Part shown: positions 8,669-24,195 of the stretch, in pieces
How the letters are laid out: each line of letters opens with the position of its first letter
Numbering within the stretch: position 1 is the first letter of the stretch
Assembly (NCBI GenBank): GCA_903896545.1
Contig: CAITYF010000025.1
Span: forward strand, 1 to 64,000
Reading direction: 5' to 3'
DNA from: an uncultured Myxococcales bacterium
Lineage (GTDB): Bacteria; Myxococcota_A; UBA9042
Length of the DNA: 64,000 nucleotides
Translations under genes and position numbers: made by a program
The notes under the pieces: model-generated
What the model was told of the DNA's origin: nothing
Seen by the model: the letters and a program-made list of their open reading frames with translations, nothing else
Database searches by the model: none

Positions 8669-10291
8669 ATGTCCGCCAACCTCTCTCATCTCTCCGGCAA
8701 AAAAGGCATCCGCAAGGGCGTCTTCCGTGACTTCGTCGCTCGCTCCAAGCAGCACGTGCTCGGCCGCGACGACTTCAAGTCGCTCCACGAGACCTCGCTC
8801 TTTGGCAAAGCCTCGCTGCACGGCACGGCGTCGTTCTACGACTTTCTGCGCCCCGATGAAGCCCACATCCAAGTCCGCGTGTGCAGCGGGACGTGCTGCG
8901 AGCTGACCGGCAAACAAGACGCCCTTCACGACGCGCTCGCCGCGCACGTTCCCGCCGCTGACATTGGCCACCTCGCGTGCGTCGGTCGCTGCTATGAAAA
9001 CACCGCGTTCCAGTGGCGCGACCAGACGTTCTCCGGCGACGCGGACCTCGCGTCCGTCTTTGCTGGAAGGCCCGTCGCGCAAGCGCCGATTCCCGTGCAT
9101 GCCACCGCGCAGCGGTTCTTGACCGGCGCGCCGCTTGACCTGTCGACCTTCCTCACGCGTCTGGACGCCGTTTTCGCCGCGCCTGCCGACGTGGTGCTTC
9201 GCGAAGTCCACGCCAGCGGTCTGCGCGGTCGCGGTGGCGCTGGTTTTCCCTTGGCGCGCAAGTTGGAGAGCTGCCAAGCCGCCGAAGGCGAGACCAAGTT
9301 TGTCGTCTGCAACGCCGATGAAGGTGACCCCGGCGCGTTTTCTGACCGCTACTTGCTCGAAGAGCAGCCATTTCTCGTGCTTCTGGGCATGGCCATCGCC
9401 GCGCGTGTGGTCGGTGCAGACGCGGCGATTCTCTACATTCGCGCCGAGTATCCTGAAGCCCTGCGCGCCGTCGACGCTGCCATTTCCGCCATCGAAGCTC
9501 ACGGTGTACCGCACGACCTTGAGTTCATCGCTGTTTCTGGCGCAGGTTCGTACGTCTGCGGTGAAGAGACGGCGCTCTTGTCGTCGCTCGAAGGACAACG
9601 CCCAGAAGTGCGCGTGCGTCCGCCGTTTCCCGTGCATCAGGGGCTGTTCTTGCAGCCCACGTTGGTGTCCAACGTCGAGACGCTGGCTTGTCTGCCGACG
9701 ATCGTCGCACAAGGCGCTGCTGCGTTTGCGCAGGTCGGAACGTCCAAGTCCAGCGGCACCAAGCTGGTCTGTCTGGATGGCACGTTTCACCGTCCAGGTG
9801 TCTACGAAGTGCCGATGGGCACACCACTCTCGCTGATTCTGCACGATCTCGGCGGTGGCACACGCGCGCCGGTCAAGGCCTTCCAGATTGGCGGTCCGCT
9901 GGGCGGCGTCGTCCCCGCAACGCAAGTCGATTCGCTCACGCTGGATTTCGAGTCGCTTCACTCCCACGGTTTCCTCCTCGGCCACGCCAGCATTGTCGGC
10001 ATTCCGACCCGCGTGCCGATGATTGACCTCATCGCTCACCTCTTCGCGTTCACGGCTGCCGAGAGCTGCGGCAAGTGTTACCCGTGTCGCATCGGCTCCC
10101 AGCGCGGCTTGGAACTGGTGAACGCCAGCCGCGAGGTGCCCATTTCCCGCGCTCTCTTTGCCGATCTGCTGGAAACCCTGGAAATCGGTTCCCTCTGCGC
10201 CCTCGGCGGAGGTTTGCCGTTACCCATTCACAATGTGCTGACCCATTTCCACGACGAACTCGCGCCTTTCTTTGTGGGAGGTGAAAAATGA
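8669..10291 (+). CDS. fdsB: NAD-dependent formate dehydrogenase beta subunit (NuoF-like)
   Basis: A 540-residue NuoF/HoxF/FdsB-type flavoprotein that would pass electrons from the formate dehydrogenase alpha subunit to NAD+. GRGGAGFP (187-194) and CNADEGDPGAF (214-224) form the FMN/NADH site, and ESCGKCYPCRIGSQR near residue 475 binds a [4Fe-4S] cluster. The N-terminal 140 residues are thioredoxin-like with Cys pairs at 72/76 and 104/108 that could hold a [2Fe-2S] cluster, as the separate FdsG/NuoE subunit normally does; no separate fdsG gene is present. The stop overlaps the start of the alpha-subunit gene (ATGA). NAD rather than NADP use is inferred from family. Confidence 0.88.
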   Translation: MSANLSHLSGKKGIRKGVFRDFVARSKQHVLGRDDFKSLHETSLFGKASLHGTASFYDFLRPDEAHIQVRVCSGTCCELTGKQDALHDALAAHVPAADIGHLACVGRCYENTAFQWRDQTFSGDADLASVFAGRPVAQAPIPVHATAQRFLTGAPLDLSTFLTRLDAVFAAPADVVLREVHASGLRGRGGAGFPLARKLESCQAAEGETKFVVCNADEGDPGAFSDRYLLEEQPFLVLLGMAIAARVVGADAAILYIRAEYPEALRAVDAAISAIEAHGVPHDLEFIAVSGAGSYVCGEETALLSSLEGQRPEVRVRPPFPVHQGLFLQPTLVSNVETLACLPTIVAQGAAAFAQVGTSKSSGTKLVCLDGTFHRPGVYEVPMGTPLSLILHDLGGGTRAPVKAFQIGGPLGGVVPATQVDSLTLDFESLHSHGFLLGHASIVGIPTRVPMIDLIAHLFAFTAAESCGKCYPCRIGSQRGLELVNASREVPISRALFADLLETLEIGSLCALGGGLPLPIHNVLTHFHDELAPFFVGGEK

Positions 10292-12990
10292 GTGCAGCGA
10301 CTTTTCTTTTGGATGAAAAACCGATCGCGCTCGCGCCCGGCGAAACGCTGCTCCAAGCGATCCAGCGGGAAAAAGGCCAGAAGTTCATCCCGACTTTGTG
10401 TGACGCGCCGCATTTGAAGCCATTTGGCAGTTGTCGCTTGTGTTCGGTCGAAGTCTCGGCTTCACCTGAAGGTCCGTGGCGCGTTGTGGGCGCCTGCCAC
10501 ACGCCGGCGACGTCGGGTCAACACGTGCGCACGCACACGCCGCGCTTGCAACGCTTACGCAAGAATATTGTCGAATTGGTCCTGACGAATCACCCGCTGG
10601 AATGTCTGACGTGCCGTGCCAACGGTCAGTGTGAACTGCAAGATGTGGCCGCAGCCGTCGGCATTCGCGAAGTGCGCTACCCCGTCGGCGCCAACCACTT
10701 CGACGCGGGCAGCGATCGTAGCCACACGTACATGACCTCGGACTTGGCCAAATGCATCCACTGTTACCGCTGCGTGCGCGCGTGCGATGAAATTCAGGGT
10801 CAGTTCGTACTCAGCATGACCGGTCGCGGCTTTGCCACCCGGATCATCAAAGGCATGGACCAGACGTTCGCGGAGAGCGACTGTGTGTCTTGCGGCGCGT
10901 GCGCGCAAGCGTGCCCGACCATGGCGATTTCGGACGTGTTCGAGTCCGCCAAGCCGCGCCCGGATCGCGACATCCGCACGACGTGCACGTACTGCGGCGT
11001 GGGCTGCAACTTGCTCGTCAACGCGCCCGACGGCGTGGTCAAAAGCATCAGCGCGCCGTTTGACGCGGCGGTGAACGCAGGGCACACGTGCGTCAAAGGC
11101 CGCTACGCGTTCGGGTTTTACAACCACAAGGACCGGCTGCGCTCTCCTCTCATCAAGAAGGACGGCGTTTTCCACGAGGCGTCTTGGGACGAAGCGCTGC
11201 GTTTCATCGCCGACAAGCTCACGGCGATCCGCGCCGCGCACGGCCCTGACGCGATCGCCGGCATTTCTTCGGCGCGCTGCACGAACGAAGAAAACTTCCT
11301 CATGCAGAAGTTCTTCCGCGCCGTCATTGGCACCAACAACATCGACGGCTGCGCGCGCGTGTGTCATGCACCGACGGCGTTGGGCATGCAGCGGACATTT
11401 GGCCTGGGCGCCGCGACCAATTCGATCGACGACTTGCAGCACACGAATTGCGTGCTCGTCGTCGGCGCCAACGCGACGTCAGGCCATCCGGTGACGGGTG
11501 CGAAGATCAAGCAGACCGCGCTGCGCGGCGTGCCGCTGATTGTCATCGACCCGCGCAAGACCGAGCTGGCGCGCCACGCCGACGTGCACCTGCAATTGCG
11601 GCCAGGCACGAACGTGGCCGTGCTGAACATGATGCTGTATCACATCATCGCGGAAGGTTTGGTCAATGAGGCGTTTGTCGCTGAGCGCACCGCGGGCTAC
11701 GCTGAATTCAAAGCGCAAATGCTGAAACTCGATATTCCCGCGTTGGAAGAAGTGTCGGGCGTGCCGAGTGCGCTGGCCAAGAAAGCGGCGGTGCTCTACG
11801 CGAGCGCGAAAAACGCGATGTCGTTCCACGGCTTGGGTGTGACGGAGCACAGTCAAGGTACGTTCGGCGTGATGCTGATCGCGCAATTGGCGATGATCAC
11901 GGGCAATGTCGGCCGGCCCGGCGTGGGCATGAACCCGCTGCGTGGTCAGAACAACGTGCAGGGCGCCGCCGACATGGGGGTGCAGCCGCATCAAGGCGCG
12001 GGCTATCTGGACGTGACGATGCCGGAAAATCTGGCGCACTACGCGGCGCAGTACGGCGTGGAAGTGCCGTCGCGCAAAGGCTTCAAGATTCCAGAGATGT
12101 TTGAGGCGGCGCTCGAAGGTCATTTGAAAGCGCTGTGGATCATGGGCGAGGACGTCGCGCAGACCGACCCGAATACGACCAAGATCGTCGCGGCTTGCAA
12201 CAATCTGGAGCTACTGGTTGTGCAGGAACTCTTCATGACGGAAACAGCCAAGCTGGCAACTGTCGTGCTGCCGGGCGCGTCGTTTCTGGAGAAGTCGGGC
12301 ACGTTCACCAACGGCGAGCGGCGCATTCAGCGTGTGCAGCGCGCGGTTGAGCCGCTGCCGGGCACCAAGCCCGATGGCGAAATCGTCGTCGCCATCATGA
12401 ACCAGATGGGCTACCCGCAGCCGCCCTACGACGCCGCAGCGATGCTCCAGGAAATCAGCCAAGTCGTGCCGTTCTTCGCCGGCGTAACCTGGGCGGGACT
12501 GGGCGATCAGGGCAAGCAGTGGCCGGTGGCCAAGGGCGGTCAGGAAACGACGATCCTGCATAAGGACGCGTTCAAGATAGGCCGCGCGCCGTTCTTCTTC
12601 GTGCCGTTTCGCGAGAGTCCGGAGCTGCTGGAGCATGGCGAGGAATTCCCGCTGATTCTCTCGACCGTGCGCGACCTGGTGCACTACAACTGCGGCGCCA
12701 TGACGCGGCGCACCGGCAACGTATTTCTCAAGACCGAGGACGTGCTCCTCATCCACCCGCTGGACGCAGCGTCGCGCAACATCCTGGACGGCGCGCCCGT
12801 GACCGTGACGTCGGCGCGCGGCCACGTGACGCTGCACGCGCAAGTGAGCGACGCGGTGCTGCCGGGAACGGTGAGCACGACGTTCCACTTTCCGGAGATG
12901 AACATCAATTTTGTAACGAGTGACGTGGTGGATACGGAAGCCAAGTGCCCGGAGTACAAGGTGGTGGCGGTGGAGGTTGTGGCGGTTTGA
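10288..12990 (+). CDS. fdsA: Formate dehydrogenase catalytic alpha subunit (molybdopterin, Cys type)
   Basis: A 900-residue molybdenum/tungsten bis-PGD formate dehydrogenase with a NuoG-like N-terminus. In order: a [2Fe-2S] ferredoxin domain, the His-ligated [4Fe-4S] motif HPLECLTCRANGQCELQ, two [4Fe-4S] sites (CIHCYRCVRAC and CVSCGACAQACP), the MGD-domain cluster motif CTYCGVGC, and the catalytic loop DGCARVCHAPT. The active-site residue is Cys359, encoded by TGT, so this is not a selenocysteine enzyme. The C-terminal dinucleotide-binding domain is complete. It forms an operon with the NuoF-like subunit and should reversibly oxidise formate to CO2. The maturation genes fdhD/fdsC and fdsD are not adjacent. 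MoaC, encoded at 46831, belongs to its cofactor pathway. Confidence 0.92.
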   Translation: MSAATFLLDEKPIALAPGETLLQAIQREKGQKFIPTLCDAPHLKPFGSCRLCSVEVSASPEGPWRVVGACHTPATSGQHVRTHTPRLQRLRKNIVELVLTNHPLECLTCRANGQCELQDVAAAVGIREVRYPVGANHFDAGSDRSHTYMTSDLAKCIHCYRCVRACDEIQGQFVLSMTGRGFATRIIKGMDQTFAESDCVSCGACAQACPTMAISDVFESAKPRPDRDIRTTCTYCGVGCNLLVNAPDGVVKSISAPFDAAVNAGHTCVKGRYAFGFYNHKDRLRSPLIKKDGVFHEASWDEALRFIADKLTAIRAAHGPDAIAGISSARCTNEENFLMQKFFRAVIGTNNIDGCARVCHAPTALGMQRTFGLGAATNSIDDLQHTNCVLVVGANATSGHPVTGAKIKQTALRGVPLIVIDPRKTELARHADVHLQLRPGTNVAVLNMMLYHIIAEGLVNEAFVAERTAGYAEFKAQMLKLDIPALEEVSGVPSALAKKAAVLYASAKNAMSFHGLGVTEHSQGTFGVMLIAQLAMITGNVGRPGVGMNPLRGQNNVQGAADMGVQPHQGAGYLDVTMPENLAHYAAQYGVEVPSRKGFKIPEMFEAALEGHLKALWIMGEDVAQTDPNTTKIVAACNNLELLVVQELFMTETAKLATVVLPGASFLEKSGTFTNGERRIQRVQRAVEPLPGTKPDGEIVVAIMNQMGYPQPPYDAAAMLQEISQVVPFFAGVTWAGLGDQGKQWPVAKGGQETTILHKDAFKIGRAPFFFVPFRESPELLEHGEEFPLILSTVRDLVHYNCGAMTRRTGNVFLKTEDVLLIHPLDAASRNILDGAPVTVTSARGHVTLHAQVSDAVLPGTVSTTFHFPEMNINFVTSDVVDTEAKCPEYKVVAVEVVAV

Positions 12991-14520: not shown

Positions 14521-16200
14521 ATGCGCTCCATCCCGCAAGACATCGACATCGCCCGCGCCGCGCGCACCAAACCCATCATCTACATCGCCGACCGCCTCGG
14601 CATCCCGCGCGAGAGCCTCTACCAGTACGGCCCGAACAAAGCCAAAGTCGCCTTCGACTTCATCGACACGCTGACCGACAAACCCAGCGGCAAGCTGGTC
14701 CTCGTCACGGCCATCTCGCCGACTGCCGCGGGTGAAGGCAAAACGACGCTCAGCGTCGGCCTGACCGACGGCCTGAACAAGATCGGCAAGAACGCGATGG
14801 TCTGCCTGCGCGAGCCGTCGCTCGGTCCCTGCTTCGGCATGAAAGGCGGCGCGGCGGGCGGCGGTTTTGCCCAAGTCGTGCCCATGGAAGACATCAACCT
14901 GCACTTTACCGGCGATTTTCACGCCATCGGCGCGGCGAATAATCTCCTGGCTGCGATGATCGACAACCACGTGCATTGGGGCAACGAGCTGAACATCGAC
15001 CTGCGCCGCGTTACGTGGCGGCGCGCGGTGGACATGAACGACCGGTCGCTGCGCTCGATCGTCTCGGGTCTGGGCGGATCGGGCGACGGGACGCCGCGCG
15101 AAACGGGCTTCAACATCACAGTGGCCTCCGAAGTGATGGCGATTTTCTGCCTGTCCGAGAACCTGGAAGACCTGCACCGGCGGCTGGGCAACATCCTGAT
15201 TGGCTACACGTTCGACAAGAAGCCGGTTTTCGCCCGTGAACTCCAAGCACCGGGCGCGATGAGTGTGCTCCTGAAAGACGCGCTGATGCCCAACCTCGTG
15301 CAGACGCTGGAAGGCAACGCGGCGTTTGTCCACGGCGGGCCGTTTGCCAACATCGCGCATGGCTGCAATTCCGTGGTGGCGACCAAGACGGCGCTGAAGC
15401 TGGCGGATTACGTGGTGACCGAAGCGGGCTTTGGCGCGGACCTGGGTGCCGAGAAATTCTTCGACATCAAGTGCCGCAAGGCCGGCTTGAAGCCGGATGT
15501 CGTCGTGCTGTTGGCGACGGTGCGCGCGCTGAAGGCGCACGGTGGCGCGGACATCAAGGCGCTGGAGACGCCGGACCTGGTGACGCTGCAAAAAGGCGCG
15601 GCGAACTTGAAGCGGCACTTGGCGAACCTGAAGCAGTTTGGCGTGCCGGCGGTCGTGGCGATCAACCGGTTTGACTCGGATTCGCCCGAGGAAGTGCAGC
15701 TGGTCAAGGATGTCGCGGCGGAGATGGGCTCCAAGGCGTTTCTGTGCACGCACTGGGCCGATGGCGGCGCGGGCACAGCGGAGCTGGCGCAAGCGGTTGC
15801 GACGATGGCGGACACGGGGCACCCGCAGTTTGCGCCGCTGTACCCCGACGACATGCCGCTCTTTGAGAAGGTGAAGACGATCGCGACGCGGCTCTACGGC
15901 GCGAGCGAGGTCATCGCCGACAAGAAGATCCGCGACGAATTCCGCGCGTACGAAGCGCAGGGCTACGGCCGTTTCCCCGTGTGCATCGCCAAGACGCCGT
16001 ATAGTTTCTCCACGGACCAGAACTTGAAAGGTGCGCCGTCCAACCACACCGTGCCGATCCGCGAGATTCGCTTGGCGACGGGCGCGGAGTTTCTCGTCGT
16101 GATTTGCGGTGAAGTGATGACGATGCCCGGTCTTCCGCGCGTGCCGGCGGCGAATAGCATCCACGTGAACGCGAAAGGTTTGGTCGAGGGGCTGTTTTAG
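14521..16200 (+). CDS. fhs: Formate-tetrahydrofolate ligase
   Basis: A 559-residue formyl-THF synthetase, close to the usual length, which makes 10-formyl-THF from formate, THF and ATP in the cytoplasm. The ATP-binding loop [12 protein letters not shown] lies at about residues 65-76, followed by the family block [19 protein letters not shown] and the FTGDFHAI motif. The C-terminal [13 protein letters not shown] region is also present. With the formate dehydrogenase about 1.5 kb upstream it forms a formate-handling neighbourhood: formate can be oxidised to CO2 or fixed into the C1-folate pool. A long leader with a strong hairpin precedes it. Confidence 0.95.
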
Positions 16201-16284: not shown

Positions 16285-17352
16285 GTGCTTGCCCAGACAG
16301 GTCGCGTGAAACAGTCGATTGCAGAGCTTCAGGCCTATCGCGTCCTCATGCGGATGCTGCGCCCGGTCGTGACGACGCGGGATGAAGCCGCGCAGCTCAC
16401 CGACGCCCAGCGCGACTGGCTGGTCCGACGGGCGATCCAGGAGCGTGGCGCGTCGTGGATGCTGACGCACGCCGCCCAGGGTCTCGTGCATTTGACGTCC
16501 GGGCAACGCGCGGCGCTGCAGGAAGCTGCCAACGTCGAGATGCGCCGGGTTCTGGAAGCGGACGCGCTACGGCAGAGTCTACGGGCGCTCTTCACCGGCC
16601 CGTCGTCGGCGCTGTTGTTGCTCAAGGGCGCGTCGATCGAGGAACGCGCCTATCCACCCGGCATTATGCGGCCGTCCATCGACGTTGACGCGCTCGTCGC
16701 GCCCAACGCGTTGCCTGAAGTGCACACGTTCTTGGCGCGCAATGGCTTGGCCTGCGTTTATCGTGCACCGACCGGTCGTACGGAGCAGTGGGTGGGGGCT
16801 GGCGGTGGCGCGTCGCTGGACCTGCACTTGCGCCTTGGCTGCCCCGTTCGGTTTCCTGCCTACGGTACGTCCCAAGTCGTGGATGCCGCAGTGGCCCGCG
16901 CCACGCGGCTGAGCGACGGCACGCGCGTGCTCCACCCCATCGATGCAACGCTGCACTTGCTCGTTCATCTCGCGGCAGGTCTGGGTGGCGATCTGCGCCA
17001 CGTGGCCGACACTCGTCAGTGGCTGGGACAGCACGGTGACGCGCTCGCCTCGGTGTCGGCGATGGCCGCGCACGTCGGCGTCCTGCGCGCGGTGTGTGCG
17101 GCTGCCGCTTGGCTCGTGGATGCGAGCGATCCGTCCGCGCCCTTGGAAGCGCTGGTCGCACGGATGCCAGCAGCCGACCGCCATCTGGCACGCCTGCAGC
17201 GCGTGGTGGTGCAGCGCTACTATCTTCGTCACGGTCCGCCGCTGCCCCCCAGCCTTTGCGCGTTGACTGAACTACTGACCGTCGATTTTCCGCGCGGCGC
17301 TGTCGGCCTCGCGGGCCTGACGGGCAACGCGGCGTTGTCGCGGTACCGGTAG
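16285..17352 (+). CDS. NTP_transf_5-type nucleotidyltransferase-fold protein
   Basis: A 355-residue protein resembling the uncharacterised nucleotidyltransferase family PF14907. The diagnostic piece is LLLLKGASIEERAY...RPSIDVDALV at about residues 110-136, in which Lys114-Gly and Asp-x-Asp would form the catalytic site. An all-helical region with several His residues (HLLVHLAAG) follows. Relatives often sit in peptide-modification or polysaccharide clusters, but neither is visible here and the gene stands alone. The start is uncertain: GTG 16285 lies very close to the predicted transcription start, and GTG 16306 is an alternative. Confidence 0.65.
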   Translation: MLAQTGRVKQSIAELQAYRVLMRMLRPVVTTRDEAAQLTDAQRDWLVRRAIQERGASWMLTHAAQGLVHLTSGQRAALQEAANVEMRRVLEADALRQSLRALFTGPSSALLLLKGASIEERAYPPGIMRPSIDVDALVAPNALPEVHTFLARNGLACVYRAPTGRTEQWVGAGGGASLDLHLRLGCPVRFPAYGTSQVVDAAVARATRLSDGTRVLHPIDATLHLLVHLAAGLGGDLRHVADTRQWLGQHGDALASVSAMAAHVGVLRAVCAAAAWLVDASDPSAPLEALVARMPAADRHLARLQRVVVQRYYLRHGPPLPPSLCALTELLTVDFPRGAVGLAGLTGNAALSRYR

Positions 17353-17754
17353 ACGTCGGTTAGCTGCTCGCACAGCTGCTCGCTTGCCTCTCCGACAACT
17401 CGCGTTCACAGAGAAACCAATTCTGCACCGACCGGCGTCGCCGCCGCCGGAATTGCGCTGGGCGGGGCTGCACGCGCTGTGACAACCCGTGGCGTTCGGG
17501 CTGGCTGGGGCAGTTCACCGTGTTGCGCGCCATGGGTGATTCGGCCGAACGACGCGGCATTCCGGTGCCCAAGGGTTGGCCGCCATTGCCGCCGTTTCCG
17601 CCGGGGCGCTGACCGTTCAGCGCTCCCCGATCGCTGGTCGAACCAGCCGTGCGCGGGGCAATCCCACCGATTGCGTCGGGTGTTCTCGCGAAATTGGCCG
17701 TCATTTTCGTTATTTTCCACGGACCGTGCGTGACTGCGCGATGACAAATTTGCC
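17353..17754. other. Intergenic region without a recognisable gene
   Basis: About 400 bases. Overlapping open frames exist on both strands, but none has a plausible start, ribosome-binding site and domain together. One plus frame, from 17364 to about 17612, is Cys- and Trp-containing and ends GWPPLPPFPPGR; its only ATG is internal at about 17532, so I do not call it. The right end is AT-richer and leads into the promoter/operator at 17755. Confidence 0.5.
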
Positions 17755-17782
17755 TTGCGACAATTTGTCGCAGGTGTACGCT
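17755..17782 (+). promoter_or_regulatory. Promoter overlapped by a perfect palindromic operator
   Basis: TTGCGA (17755-17760) and TACGCT (17777-17782) are 16 bp apart, a plausible -35/-10 pair. The perfect palindrome TGCGACAA-T-TTGTCGCA (17756-17772) covers the -35 box and most of the spacer, the classic place for a repressor site. A related half-site, TGACAAATTTG, lies just upstream (about 17742-17752). The arrangement suggests control of the downstream Cys/His-rich protein and cytochrome operon by a small dimeric repressor, for example of the BlaI/CopY or another metal- or redox-sensing type. The identity of the regulator is a guess. Confidence 0.55.
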
Positions 17783-17871
17783 TGCTGCGTGCGTTCGGGT
17801 CCGGAATGGCGTGGATTGTGTGACTGCCACTTGCGGCGAAGCTCGGCTGTGGCGATGGGGAGCGAAGACGG

Positions 17872-18324
17872 ATGACGGGTTGTGCGCGAGCAAAGACGGG
17901 AGCAGTCCAGGTCATCGCGACGCTGGTTCTCCTGCTTTTTTCGTTTCAGGCCCTCGCCAACCATAAGAACTGTGCATGCGGCCATTGCAACGGCGCTTCC
18001 GAAGCGAAATCCGCGCCTGTGGCGGCCGAGCCTCAAACGGAGCATTGCTGCTGTCACCACCACGACGACGAAGCGGCGACGAAGGCCGCCGAACTGCATG
18101 ATCCGGGCTGCACCTGCGGCGACGAGACCGACGGTGCGCCGGCTGTGTTCGCCGATGCCAAAGTAGGCGTCGACACCGACCTTCTCGCGCTCGGTGTCAG
18201 CTGGTCCGCCTTGCGCGTCGAGACACGCCCCAGCGCGTGCGTCGCATCCGGGTGGCTGCATACCACCGGTCCGCCGGATGTCCACGACCAACTGTTCCTG
18301 CGATTTCACGCGCTCCTGATTTAG
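17872..18324 (+). CDS. Exported Cys/His-rich putative metal-binding protein
   Basis: A 150-residue protein with an N-terminal hydrophobic segment (about residues 10-30) ending in FQALAN, read as a signal peptide. Three Cys/His clusters follow: HKNCACGHC (31-39), EHCCCHHHDD (57-66) and CTCGDE near residue 80. They look like soft-metal (copper, zinc, cadmium) ligands. I do not recognise a named family. It is the first gene after the operator-covered promoter and about 200 bases before a haem-containing barrel protein. A role in metal sensing, delivery or detoxification in the periplasm is inferred from ligand composition only. Confidence 0.6.
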   Translation: MTGCARAKTGAVQVIATLVLLLFSFQALANHKNCACGHCNGASEAKSAPVAAEPQTEHCCCHHHDDEAATKAAELHDPGCTCGDETDGAPAVFADAKVGVDTDLLALGVSWSALRVETRPSACVASGWLHTTGPPDVHDQLFLRFHALLI

Positions 18325-18525
18325 CACCGTCGGCTGGGTTCGCTGCATTCTTTCCAGCAACCCAAGCGCCGTGACCTCGCGTGGTCCGTGTGCCGGCCGT
18401 ACGCCACAACGCCTCTCCACCTGATTTGCGGGCCACGCTCTGCGCGTTGTCCCTCGGTTCGTCGGCGCAACGTCGCGTCGCCGTCCCGCGCCCGTTGCGT
18501 TCTGTGCAGTCCTCAGGAGTTGTCC
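18325..18525. other. Spacer between the Cys/His-rich gene and the haem barrel gene
   Basis: About 200 bases with no supported gene. It ends with the AGGAGT ribosome-binding site of the next gene. No clear terminator hairpin separates the two genes, so they may share a transcript. Confidence 0.5.
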
Positions 18526-19851
18526 ATGAGCCGTTCTGTCTTTCGCCATTTTCTCCGCGGTCTGCTTTTGCTCGCCGTGTTCGCAACCGCGACGTCTGCC
18601 TACGCGATCCCCGCCTTTGCGCGCCGCTACCAGACGTCGTGCCAGACGTGTCACATCGCGTTTCCGCGCCTCACCCCGTTTGGCGAAGCGTTTCGCCGCA
18701 ACGGATTCCGCTTTCCCGGCGGCGGCGATACGACCGCGGTTAAGGAAGAGCCGGTTGCGTTGGGCAACGACGCGCAAAAAGAGCTGTGGCCGCAAGCTGT
18801 TTGGCCGGGTGAGCTCGCCGGTTCGCTGCCACTTTCGCTGGTCGTGGATGGCAAATTGACGGTCGGACCGCTGCCTGAAGAGCACATGAGCGTGGTGGGG
18901 GCAGCTGAGCCCGCAGCGATGGCGGGAATGGACATGCCGCCTGCAAACACGGGCAAAGTGGGATTCGACACGCTGGGTGGTCACGTCGGTATGCGTGCGG
19001 GTGGTGCGATCGGCGATTTTGCGTCGGTTTTCGCGTCTGTAGACGTCGGCGGCCACGAGCCAATCTCCGTCGAGCGCGGTTGGCTGAACTTGACGCCCGC
19101 CGGTCCGACCGCGCTTCAGGTCCGCATGGGGCGCTTTGAACCGTCCCTGCACGGCGTTTCGATTCATCGCAGCCTCTTCATGCACCAACTCCGCCTGCAG
19201 ACGACTTCAGTCGGCCTGAATCCGTGGATGCCGGAGCCCAATCAAACCGGGTTGGAGCTGGCTGGGGTGGCGCTGGGTCGCTTCGGCTGGGACGTCGGCG
19301 TCGTCGACAACGCGGCTGGCACGCGTTACCTGCGCAAGGACGCTTACGCGCGCGCTGAGTACAAGTTCGGCGGCATGCGGCTGGACGGGCTGGAAGCGGA
19401 GGCCAAAGGCGCGCCGTGGTCAGAACGCAGCCTCCTGCTTGGCGCGTCGGTCTACACGGGTAAGGCGGCGATTGCGGGCACGCATGACGACGACTTTCTG
19501 CGCGTGGGCGTCGATCTCCATGCGATTTTTGACGACCTGCTGCTCGACGTCGTCGCCGTTCGTGAACATCACGATCAGCCGACTGCCGACGCTGGTGTTC
19601 CGATGCAAGTGGACCAGCTTTTGGCGGAGCTGACCTGGATGACCACCCCCGTCTTCTTCCCGACCGTGCGTTTTGAAGCGTCCCGCCTCGACTACGACGC
19701 GACTTTTGCCGACAGCTGGCTCGGTTCTCTGCTCCTCTGTGCCGTCGTTCGGCCCAACGTTGTCCTGCGCATTGAGGGCGATGTCGGTGCCGATGCGACG
19801 ACGTCTGCGGAATTCCACTCCGCCGTCCTGTCTTTTTCCACGGCTTTTTAA
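18526..19851 (+). CDS. Outer-membrane-type beta-barrel protein with one c-type haem motif
   Basis: A 441-residue exported protein. ATG 18526 follows AGGAGT and starts a signal peptide (to about Ala27). Directly after it comes RRYQTSCQTCHIAFPRL, a single CxxCH haem motif (Cys39-His43), followed by FGEAFRRNGFRFPGGG. This layout is known from porin-like cytochrome proteins of metal-reducing and related bacteria. The rest has alternating polar/hydrophobic strands and ends in Phe (VLSFSTAF), typical of outer-membrane barrels. A Met-rich insert MAGMDMPPANTG (about residue 130) recalls the MxM motifs of the small lipoprotein at 23983. A likely role is passing electrons from the bc/octahaem complex to the cell surface, or binding copper there. 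Confidence 0.7.
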   Translation: MSRSVFRHFLRGLLLLAVFATATSAYAIPAFARRYQTSCQTCHIAFPRLTPFGEAFRRNGFRFPGGGDTTAVKEEPVALGNDAQKELWPQAVWPGELAGSLPLSLVVDGKLTVGPLPEEHMSVVGAAEPAAMAGMDMPPANTGKVGFDTLGGHVGMRAGGAIGDFASVFASVDVGGHEPISVERGWLNLTPAGPTALQVRMGRFEPSLHGVSIHRSLFMHQLRLQTTSVGLNPWMPEPNQTGLELAGVALGRFGWDVGVVDNAAGTRYLRKDAYARAEYKFGGMRLDGLEAEAKGAPWSERSLLLGASVYTGKAAIAGTHDDDFLRVGVDLHAIFDDLLLDVVAVREHHDQPTADAGVPMQVDQLLAELTWMTTPVFFPTVRFEASRLDYDATFADSWLGSLLLCAVVRPNVVLRIEGDVGADATTSAEFHSAVLSFSTAF

Positions 19852-20453: not shown

Positions 20454-20951
20454 ATGGCAACGGAGTCGGAGAAGCAGCCCGAAATGGCGGGTGAAGTCGG
20501 CGCGGATCGCCGCGACTTTCTGTGGAAAGTTGGTTGTGCGGCGCTGAGCATTGCGGGCGTTGAGGCAGCGGCATCGACTTTGCGTTTTGCGAAAGCGCCG
20601 GTCTCATACGGTCCCGCACAACGGCGGTCGCTGGGTGACCTGACGCGCTTTCCGCCCGGCGCGCCGGTGTACGTTGAAGATGCTGGCGTCTTCGTCCTGC
20701 GGGATGCCAAGGGACTTCGCGCGCTCTCGGCCACGTGCACGCATCTGGGCTGCACCGTGCGTACCGATCGAGAAACCGGCGGCTTCGTTTGCCCGTGTCA
20801 CGGCAGCCGCTACGACAAGGAAGGCAAGGTCGTCGCCGGACCTGCACCCGCGTCACTGCCTTTTGTGCGCGTTGACCAGGACCGCCGCGGTCGTCTGGTC
20901 GTGGACTTGGGGACGCCCGTCGACGCCGACTTTCGCACAAAGGTGGGCTAG
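20454..20951 (+). CDS. Rieske [2Fe-2S] protein of a cytochrome bc-type complex
   Basis: A 165-residue Rieske iron-sulfur protein. ATG 20454 follows CGGAGGG. DRRDFLWKVG near the N-terminus is a twin-arginine-like anchor. The cluster ligands are CTHLGC (95-100) and CPCHGS (113-118), with the disulfide cysteines in place. It would accept electrons from quinol at the Qo site of the adjacent cytochrome b and hand them to the octahaem cytochrome c encoded downstream. It is 3 bases from the cytochrome b gene. Confidence 0.9.
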   Translation: MATESEKQPEMAGEVGADRRDFLWKVGCAALSIAGVEAAASTLRFAKAPVSYGPAQRRSLGDLTRFPPGAPVYVEDAGVFVLRDAKGLRALSATCTHLGCTVRTDRETGGFVCPCHGSRYDKEGKVVAGPAPASLPFVRVDQDRRGRLVVDLGTPVDADFRTKVG

Positions 20952-20954
20952 GCG

Positions 20955-22103
20955 ATGCGCAACCTGCTCAAGCACATCCAAGCGTCAATTTTCCGCGTTG
21001 GTTGGCCGAAGGACGAGCGCGCGGCGACCAAGGCGATGGTCTCGTCCATTACGCTGCACGTGCATCCGCCCAAAGTGCGACCGGCGGCGCTGAAATTCCG
21101 CGCGTCGTGGGCGCTTGGCATCATCTCGTTGGTTCTGGCGGGCGCACTGACGGCGACCGGCGTCTACCTGATGTTCTATTATTACCCGCACCCGGACGTG
21201 GCGTGGCGGTCGATGAAGGACCTCGCGTTCGTGGTTCCCTTTGGCGTGGTCACGCGCAACCTCCACCGTTGGGGCGCGCACGCGATGGTGGCGATTGTCA
21301 CGCTTCACATGCTGCGGGTCTTTCTGGCTGGCGGCTACAAACCGCCGCGTGAGGCCAACTGGGTGGCCGGCGTCGCGCTGTGGGTGCTGACGTTGGCGCT
21401 TTCCTTCACGGGCTACCTGCTGCCCTGGGATCAGCTCGCGTACTGGGCGGTCACGGTGGGCGCCAACATGGCCGGCGCGATTCCGTGGCTGGGCAAACCG
21501 CTGCGCATTCTGCTGCTGGGCGATTTGACCGTTGGCGAGGCTGCGCTTTTGCGGTTTTACGTGCTGCATTGCGTCTTGCTCCCGCTCCTGTTGTTTGGCT
21601 TCGTCGGCTTTCACCTCTTTCGCGTGCGCAAGGACGGCGGTTTGGTCGTCGCCGAACACGATCCAGCGACGCTCAACGCCAAGCCAGGTTTTCGCATCCC
21701 GTCGTGGCCGCATCTCGTCTACCGCGAGTTTCTCGTCGGCTTGGTGACCACTGCGGTGCTGCTCCTGCTGTCCCTCATCGCGAACGCGCCGCTGGAGCCG
21801 CTTGCCGACCCCGCGCGTACGCCGAATCCTGCCAAGGCGCCGTGGTACTTCCTCGGCATTCAGGAACTCGCGCATTGGTCGGCCTTCTGGGGCGGCGTGT
21901 TCGTGCCCGCCGTCACAGTCCTCGGTTTGGCGGCGTTGCCGTATTTTGACCGTCACATGGACGGCGTGGGTCGCTATTTTCCCAAAGAACGCCGCGTTGC
22001 CTCCACGCTCTTTTTGCTTCTGATGACCTTCTTTGCCGTCGTGACCGTCATCGGCACGCTTTTCCGCGGCCCGGCGTGGGCGCTGATGAGGTGGCCGTCA
22101 TGA
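20955..22103 (+). CDS. Fused cytochrome b (b6 plus subunit IV type)
   Basis: A 382-residue membrane protein that combines the four-helix cytochrome b6 core with the C-terminal helices of subunit IV. Haem ligands are His104/His118 (Hx13H) and His205/His220 (Hx14H, the b6-type spacing). The Qo-site motif that reads PEWY in bc1/b6f complexes is APWY here ([15 protein letters not shown], about residue 290), a variant found in menaquinol-oxidising complexes. With the Rieske protein upstream and the octahaem cytochrome overlapping by ATGA downstream, it forms a quinol:cytochrome c oxidoreductase. Confidence 0.9.
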
Positions 22104-23974
22104 CGCCGCGCGAAGACCGTTGGTTGCACGCCGTTTTTGCCGCTGCGTCGGTCGCGATTGTGGTCCTCGTCGGCGTGGCCGTGGCGCGCGAATGGCATCG
22201 TCCGTTGACCGTCGAACAGCGACTTGTGCTCGCGCTGGGCGTTGTCGATCGCTGCGTGACGTGCCACGACGAGAGTCAACACCCCGGTAAGGCGTTGGAA
22301 CAGCACCCGGTCGAGCGCTTTGGCTGCACGCCGTGTCACGGTGGACAGGGCCTGGCGACGACGGCGCAAGCGGCGCATCGCGCGAGTCCTGACTGGGAAC
22401 GACCGCTCTTTTCCAAATCAGAACGCGACGCAGCGTGTGGCGCGTGCCATTTGGGCGCCGCCGCGCCGGTTCCCTCGTTGGTAGCGGGCCGTCGTGCGTT
22501 GACCGAACGCGGTTGTGCGGGCTGCCACACGATTCCCGGCATCGCGCCGCCAAATCACGCGCCGGAACTCGACGGTCTGCGCGACAAGGTCACGCCCGCG
22601 TGGGTGCGCGCGTGGCTCACCGATCCAGAGAAGCTGGACCCACGCCACAGGATGCCAACTTTTGCGCTGACGCGGCCGGAGATCGAGGCGCTGGTCGCGT
22701 ACCTCTGGACGTTGACTGGCGCGCCCCTGACTCCGTTGCCCGCAGAACCGACGGGTGATGCCGATCGCGGCAAGACGGCGCTGGCTCGCCTGCGCTGCGC
22801 GACCTGTCACGCCTTTGAAGGCCGGGGCGGTGATTTTGCCCCCGATCTGGGCCTCGCTGGCGTCAAGCTTGACCCACTTTGGCTGTGGAACTACCTCACG
22901 AACACGCACCGGCTCCGTCCGCACACGCGGATGCCCGGATTTCAGTTGGCCCAAGAAGACGCCTCAGACATCGTCGCCTACGCCGCGGAGCAGTGGGTGC
23001 CCGACACCGGCGTGCTGCCGTGGCAGGCGTTTGCGGGCGATGTGAAGCCCGAATTGGCCCAACAAGGTCAGTTGCTCTTTGCTGAGCAAGGCTGCGGCGG
23101 CTGTCACCTCGTTGCCGGAAAGCGCGCGCCGCCGTCCGCACCAGCGCTGGATCGCCTGGGCGACCGGCGCGCTTCGGACCTGTCCAGCACGCAAAAAGGG
23201 CGGACGCTGGCGGATGTGCCGACGTGGGTCGCGCAAAAGGTCTTGGAGCCACGCGCCTTTGACATGCCCGGCGCGCAGCGCAGCAAAATGCCGAGTTTCC
23301 CCCACGTCGCGGCCGAAGAAGCGCTGGCGCTGGGCATCGCCTTGGCGACGCAGCACGCCGTTTTGCCGCCGGAGCTGTGGATTCGCCACCACGACGTGCC
23401 GCCGTTCCAGCCGCCGCCGGGGGAAGTGGGGCAGCTGATCTCGCGTTTCCGCTGTGTTTCCTGTCATCGGTTCCATGGCCAGGGCGGCGACGTGTCGCGC
23501 ATTCCGCTGGACAATGCCGGCGCGCGCCTCCAGCAAGCCTGGTTGGAGCGCTTCCTGCACACGCCCGTGACGGTGCGCATGGACCAGCCGGAGCGGATGC
23601 CAGTGCTGGGCATGACGCCGCGAGAGGCAAAACTGCTTGCGGCGTGGATCGAGACGACGTTTGGTGACGACCGTGTGGCGCCCGCCCCCATGCTCCTGCC
23701 AGAAGACGTGACGGCCGGAAAGGCGCTCTTTGTGCAGAACAAGTGTGGCGAATGCCACGTCGCCGATGGCGGCGGGACGATGAAAGGCCCGACTTTGGAC
23801 GGCGCATCGCTCCGCTTGCAGCCGAGTTACGTGGTTGCGCTTTTGCGCGATCCGACCGTTGTTCCTGAAAACCGTCACCCCAGCCAGCGTTTTCCTGACG
23901 CAGCGGCGCGGGCTATGGCGGCCTACGTGCTCAGCTTGCCCGGTGGGTCGCCGTGGCCGGACGCACTTCCTTGA
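22100..23974 (+). CDS. Octahaem cytochrome c subunit of the bc-type complex
   Basis: A 624-residue protein with one N-terminal membrane anchor and eight CxxCH motifs, in order: CVTCH, CTPCH, CGACH, CAGCH, CATCH, CGGCH, CVSCH and CGECH. The later part looks like repeated mono-haem cytochrome c domains, each ending in an IVAYL/LAAWI-type helix with a Met axial-ligand candidate (RMPGF, KMPSF, RMPVL). The start ATG 22100 overlaps the cytochrome b stop. It replaces the single cytochrome c1 or f of canonical complexes and would give a long haem wire in the periplasm, able to reach the outer-membrane haem protein encoded in the same operon. Confidence 0.9.
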
Positions 23975-23982
23975 AAGTGGAG

Positions 23983-24195
23983 ATGAAGATGATTCGCCTG
24001 ATTCTTGCCCTCTTGCTCACATCAGGCTTCGTCACCGGATGCACGCCGACGACCGCCAAGACCACCACCGATACCGTCGACAACGCCGACGCGATGAGTG
24101 GCACGGATGCCAGCGGTAGCGGCGACACCATGGACCCCAACGACATGGGCGACATGGATATGGGCAGCGCCCCGATGCCCGGCATGGACATGTAG
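23983..24195 (+). CDS. Small Met/Asp-rich lipoprotein, possible copper binder
   Basis: A 70-residue lipoprotein (lipobox VTGC, Cys20; starts ATG 23983 or ATG 23989). The mature part is Thr/Asp-rich and ends in DMGDMDMGSAPMPGMDM, a cluster of MxM motifs like those of periplasmic copper-binding proteins. It follows the octahaem cytochrome gene by 8 bases. A copper-binding or metal-buffering role is inferred from composition and from the cupredoxin, the Cys/His-rich protein and the Met-rich insert of the barrel protein in the same cluster. Confidence 0.55.
   Translation: MKMIRLILALLLTSGFVTGCTPTTAKTTTDTVDNADAMSGTDASGSGDTMDPNDMGDMDMGSAPMPGMDM

Follow-up and report, generated by a model that had tools for sequence, protein, structure and literature searches.

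The described systems closest to the one considered here are the RegB/RegA pairs of Proteobacteria (PrrB/PrrA, ActS/ActR, RegS/RegR). The motifs GGxxNPF and HExxTPL are the marks of RegB-type kinases, and senC is the usual neighbour of regBA in Proteobacteria. For the DNA motifs of PrrA (YSCGGC(5)GWCRMA), RegR and RegA, with 12, 11 and 12 informative positions, respectively, we relied on those quoted in PMC5506826. In its passages on Acidithiobacillus ferrooxidans, that paper describes binding of RegA to rus (first gene cyc2), petI and reg DNA, at sites that lie mostly upstream of the promoter/polymerase site; the RegA motif was not found in this species, where, by the same account, RegA follows no published motif. 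As judged by title and abstract, none of the papers found in literature searches on RegB/RegA in myxococcal or deltaproteobacterial lineages describes RegB/RegA in Myxococcota.

The window, i.e., the whole 64-kb stretch of DNA that was analysed, carries a Cyc2-like/cupredoxin/bc operon preceded by a palindrome (Table 1). As the earlier note had it, this is a perfect palindrome, an exact 8-1-8 inverted repeat of 17 bp at 17756-17772 (TGCGACAA-T-TTGTCGCA; whole site, TGCGACAATTTGTCGCA), and it does overlap a candidate promoter, covering most of a -35-like box and most of the 16-nt spacer. The “good promoter” of the same note is not supported: agreement with the sigma-70 consensus is 4/6 positions for the -35 hexamer and 3/6 for the -10 hexamer, and a promoter scan of 17300-18600 reported none, which is why we regard the promoter as weak by consensus. 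Both same-genus orthologues (L049, L050) retain CTTGCG and CGCnGG with their spacing, and from the dyad region they keep TTGCG-N9-CGCnGG only; the ungapped counterparts of the -10-like hexamer are TGCTGT (L049) and TAAAGT (L050). Reading frames similar to the Cys/His-rich first gene also precede other orthologous operons.

Table 1. Features of the promoter region and operon, with the basis of each assignment.
Feature	Position	Strand	Basis
Direct repeat TGAC-N7-TGAC, 11-bp period; probable second cis element	17731..17745	+	Conserved in orthologues
-35-like TTGCGA, overlapped by the dyad	17755..17760	+	Sequence; weak match to sigma-70
Dyad TGCGAC-AATTT-GTCGCA; proposed RegA operator	17756..17772	.	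Motif match; same form at regBA promoters
-10-like TACGCT, 16-nt spacer	17777..17782	+	Sequence; missing from promoter scan
Small secreted Cys/His-rich protein, 150 aa, 10 Cys, 10 His; first gene	17872..18324	+	Homologues in L023/L024
Cyc2-like monoheme cytochrome-porin, 441 aa	18526..19851	+	AIPAFARRY-QTS-CQTCH-IAF-PRL; beta-barrel model; best PDB matches porins
Cupredoxin-like protein with CarboxypepD_reg domain, 190 aa	19862..20434	+	Pfam Copper-bind, CarboxypepD_reg
Rieske iron-sulfur protein	20454..20951	+	Pfam Rieske
Cytochrome b, bc/b6f class	20955..22103	+	Pfam Cytochrome_B; best NCBIfam model ExtP, below cut-off
Multiheme c-type cytochrome, 8 CxxCH	22100..23974	+	Sequence
Small Met-rich lipoprotein-like protein, 70 aa, 10 Met	23983..24195	+	Sequence

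As a palindrome, the site is at chance level for 64 kb: the window has four perfect 8-1-8 palindromes, and ten sequences simulated with a first-order Markov model had 2.0 on average. Given that it is unremarkable per se, the argument must rest on its position and its genomic company. When the window was searched at ≤3 mismatches, the palindrome itself was the sole match. As for further copies of the 17-mer, for which the earlier note had suggested a genome search, the 6.76-Mb genome (G000) holds no second copy within 1 mismatch and five copies at 2 mismatches, one of them at the regB/regA junction. The idea of a multi-copy operator in G000 was discarded, as there is no genome-wide enrichment (49 sites at ≤3 mismatches vs 78 for a reversed control; 11 strict dyads, i.e., TGCGRC-N5-GYCGCA, vs 28). 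Set against the published motifs, 17756-17772 matched PrrA at 11/12 informative positions, RegR at 10/11 and RegA at 12/12.

Searching G000 with the ActR/PrrA/RegA model yielded a full-length match at C14:32081-32596, adjoining regB and accompanied by a third gene. This pair sits on a contig other than that of the window, which supports the earlier view of an operator-like site whose regulator is encoded elsewhere; the redox signal proposed with it is likewise supported as plausible. The RegA protein (182 aa) has NF033791 as its best model (179.6 bits, model positions 4-173 of 173), with Response_reg at 11-119 and HTH_8 at 138-177, the HTH ending in GMHRRSLQRKL, while RegB (432 aa; GGPSNPF, HELATPLST) has NF033792 (277.7 bits). 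With a presence threshold of E below 1e-32, RegA was detected in 6 of the 52 genomes of the relatives set (G000, G003, G004, G012, G014 and G032). In all six pairs both proteins missed the NCBIfam curated cut-offs of 250 bits for RegA (NF033791) and 350 bits for RegB (NF033792), the five other RegA proteins scoring 174.7-192 bits and the other RegB proteins 186.9-265.1 bits; RegA was therefore filed as RegA-like rather than as a certified equivalog. Amongst PDB entries, 3rqi is related to RegA over its full length and 1umq over its C-terminal part. Copper-promoted RegA dimers formed via Cys156 are reported in PMC9147068 for the RegA of that study.

Dyads of the same form were found at the regBA operons themselves. 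In G000, TGCGGCGAAACGTCGCA lies 35 bp before regB and matches all three motifs in full (PrrA 12/12, RegR 11/11, RegA 12/12). The G014 copy, TGCGGCTTTTGGTCGCA (TGCGGC-N5-GTCGCA, PrrA 12/12), is placed upstream of both regB (by 105 bp) and a divergent YtkA gene (by 58 bp). That of G032, TGCGGCAAAAGGTCGCA (TGCGGC-N5-GTCGCA, PrrA 12/12), stands 104 bp upstream of a five-gene same-strand run (L237, C725), apparently one operon, that opens with an MbnP-type gene, includes two unassigned genes and closes with regB and regA. At 1 mismatch, TGCGATCCGTCGTCGCA lies 35 bp before regB in G004; G003 and G012 have regBA with no strict or 1-mismatch dyad before regB. By arithmetic, a strict dyad would fall within 120 bp before a given operon with a chance of about 2e-4 (8-11 per 6.4-7.3 Mb), and three full dyads in six regBA genomes are therefore far from chance. 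The 2-mismatch copy of the palindrome at C14:32660-32676 lies within the 3' end of regB, 37 bp before the regA start; a near-copy at this junction is kept in G000, G003 and G004, with the codons CCT and ACA, which account for 5.9% of Pro codons and 5.7% of Thr codons in G000.

Placing the 11 strict dyads of G000 on gene calls from a simple codon-usage caller written for the analysis put 8 inside predicted genes and 3 in intergenic DNA, one each before regB, before the bc operon and before a YtkA gene. The last of these (L250, G000:C229:46921-46937) is a full PrrA-consensus dyad, and the YtkA gene is followed by one for an outer-membrane-type protein (type assigned by eye); this dyad likely marks a further predicted RegA target. 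The G014 dyad separates regB from divergently oriented genes for a YtkA protein and for a homologue of this outer-membrane-type protein (30% identity, E 4e-10). Strict dyads are no more often intergenic in G000 (3/11) than in the regA-less G001 (2/5 examined, of 6); in G032 the share was 2/7 examined (of 8). A strict dyad was also seen 109 bp before a citrate synthase-like gene (by eye) in G032 (L240, G032:C456), a genome with regA. Two other candidates were put aside. A 1-mismatch palindrome over the start of an HMA-type lipoprotein-like gene (by eye; L003, G005) is probably due to chance, since G005 lacks regA and simple arithmetic predicts about 3 matches of this kind across 52 genomes. Likewise put down to chance were the two RegA-like scores found at L186, a LexA-like gene of G000.

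Compared with the proteobacterial systems, the present pair is alike in its RegB (GGxxNPF, HELxTPL), in a RegA made of a receiver and a Fis-type HTH ending in GMHRRSLQRKL, and in its PrrA-motif dyads, apparent autoregulation and, as predicted here, a bc-complex target. It differs in being myxococcal, in scoring below the NCBIfam curated cut-offs and in having its site over the -35 box; moreover, two relatives have YtkA- or MbnP-type genes near regBA instead of senC. We consider it likely that the palindrome is the operator of a RegA/PrrA-class redox response regulator encoded elsewhere in the genome. The membrane kinase, of RegB type by sequence, would sense the redox state of the respiratory chain, as expected of its family, and would phosphorylate RegA, a dimer of which would bind TGCGRC-N5-GYCGCA at its own regBA promoter, at the YtkA operon and at the Cyc2-like/cupredoxin/bc promoter. 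With the -35 box and spacer lying under the dyad, we lean, on the strength of its position, towards repression as the likeliest effect of phosphorylated RegA on the operon.

The alternative within the RegA reading is that RegA binds the dyad but activates transcription from a different start site. PrrA in Rhodobacter sphaeroides mostly activates, and the -35/-10 hexamers at the dyad are weak. Most direct PrrA targets are predicted to be positively regulated, in the data presented in PMC4263372, and both activation and repression are among the effects of RegA-class regulation reported in PMC5359404. The dyad nevertheless overlaps a pair of hexamers of which three species retain the -35 part and the spacing, and we rate activation as less likely than repression.

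Orthologous operons, recognized by a cytochrome-porin match with E below 1e-100, were present in 8 of the 52 relatives-set genomes (G000, G001, G002, G007, G010, G016, G020 and G021), and further loci came from named contigs, mostly of uncultured Myxococcales and other former Deltaproteobacteria. The earlier note had taken a lack of the palindrome before such operons as counting against its own reading, and a lack was what we found: the dyad at ≤1 mismatch occurs at 1 of the 15 loci tested, namely the window itself, and is absent from the 14 others. Amongst the eight relatives-set genomes with the operon, regA was detected in G000 only; as the seven dyad-less operons of this set are in genomes without regA, the regulator hypothesis would lead one to expect no site there. 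The congeners G001 and G002 keep the neighbours of regBA (Lon, lipoprotein, third gene, 714-aa protein, Xre) and are missing regBA itself, with a gap of 39-49 bp between the lipoprotein and third genes and an extra gene, absent from the G000 locus, between the third and 714-aa genes. Their bc dyads score 10/12 and 9/12 against PrrA, respectively, vs 11/12 in G000. A tree of four neighbour proteins gave two pairs, G000/G003 and G001/G004 (support 1.00 and 0.94), a grouping that would imply two regBA losses, the tree being small and unrooted.

These loci also bear on whether the dyad arose by chance, with the promoter controlled only via the conserved TGAC-N7-TGAC repeat and basal elements. The repeat is present in 7 of the 8 closest loci and the palindrome in 1, palindrome counts are at chance level, and TTGCG and CGCnGG are retained even where regA is absent. 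Near-identical dyads nonetheless stand at the regBA locus of G000 itself and before regBA operons of other genera, and the site is degraded in two congeners without regBA; we thus judge a chance dyad to be unlikely. Less probable still is an operator for some other dimeric regulator, e.g., CRP/FNR, Fur, Rrf2 or the BlaI/CopY-type repressor that the earlier note had in mind, because, although a perfect 8-1-8 dyad over a promoter is a generic repressor site, this site and its copies in the genome agree with RegA-class motifs and occur at regBA, and 17756-17772 lacks the TACA/TGTA core typical of BlaI sites.

At the closest loci, the TGAC direct repeat was found on the + strand only, and it occurs once in the window; its exact form was absent from the other 42 loci searched alongside the 8 closest. 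It precedes orthologous operons of several genera, also outside the source genus. In samples of G000 and G002 its spacing gave 5 and 6 intergenic matches, respectively, among the highest of 31 spacings, of which others reached 5 and 6 too. The repeat probably serves a second regulator that the orthologues have in common. Direct repeats with an 11-bp period are typical of OmpR/PhoB-type regulators, and a search for this family in 15 genomes yielded 6-12 genes per genome. A PHO box was first suspected because a similar element precedes pstB in G001. This assignment was dropped: phoU was found only within the genus (5/10 genomes), whereas the repeat also occurs outside it, and the orientation of the repeat is presumably opposite to that of PHO boxes. 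In G001, the form TGACnGnCGCRTGACnG lies ahead of pstB-phoU (L110), and in G000 it lies ahead of a DksA-like gene (L137); similar sites were seen in G002 (L107) and G004 (L111).

On a wider view, which we put forward tentatively and rate as somewhat short of probable, a myxobacterial RegB/RegA with an alphaproteobacterial-type operator controls the whole Cyc2/cupredoxin/bc electron-uptake operon, with the logic of Acidithiobacillus rus/petI, and in the two congeners without regBA the operator has decayed, leaving the TGAC element as control. The A. ferrooxidans system is alike in having a RegA-class regulator and targets with Cyc2, a cupredoxin (rusticyanin) and a bc complex (bc1); it is unlike in that the present genes form a single operon in another phylum with a recognisable dyad, and in that their regulation is predicted only. 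If the RegA reading is correct, an unannotated promoter of an uncultured lineage would gain a regulator, a type of signal and a DNA code, and RegBA with a TGCGRC-N5-GYCGCA operator would seem to extend into Myxococcota. The reading would also connect redox sensing with a Cyc2-like operon whose role may be in iron oxidation or electron uptake, and the congeners without regBA would offer a natural test of operator decay following regulator loss.

The 441-aa cytochrome-porin was compared with Cyc2, for which the sequence criterion is AXPXFAR[Q/K][T/Y] before CXXCH and PXL after it; the first of these motifs is called unique to Cyc2 in the relevant section of Keffer et al. (PMC8406198). The structural criterion is a 16-stranded porin fused to an N-terminal cytochrome. 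Like Cyc2 fused cytochrome-porins, the protein has a signal-peptide-like start, AxPxFARxY (AIPAFARRY), one CxxCH (CQTCH) followed by PxL (PRL), a length of 441 aa and a beta-barrel model; unlike them, it has R at the Q/K position of the motif, and iron oxidation is putative. The relaxed motif was present in 21/21 aligned homologues and the Q/K form in 4/21. An AlphaFold model (mean pLDDT 72.9) consists of an N-terminal helical part followed by beta-strands, and its top PDB matches are outer-membrane porins, with a TMq of about 0.5. From its sequence and model, we term the protein Cyc2-like. Deltaproteobacterial Cyc2 sequences are included in the data set presented in PMC12442345, so that Cyc2 in this phylum is not new.

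A plasmid search with the cytochrome-porin gave no match. Its homologues are many and lie mostly on former Deltaproteobacteria contigs (49 loci). Elsewhere in the window, genes resembling formate dehydrogenase subunits (8669-12990) and formate-tetrahydrofolate ligase (14521-16200) were recognized by eye.
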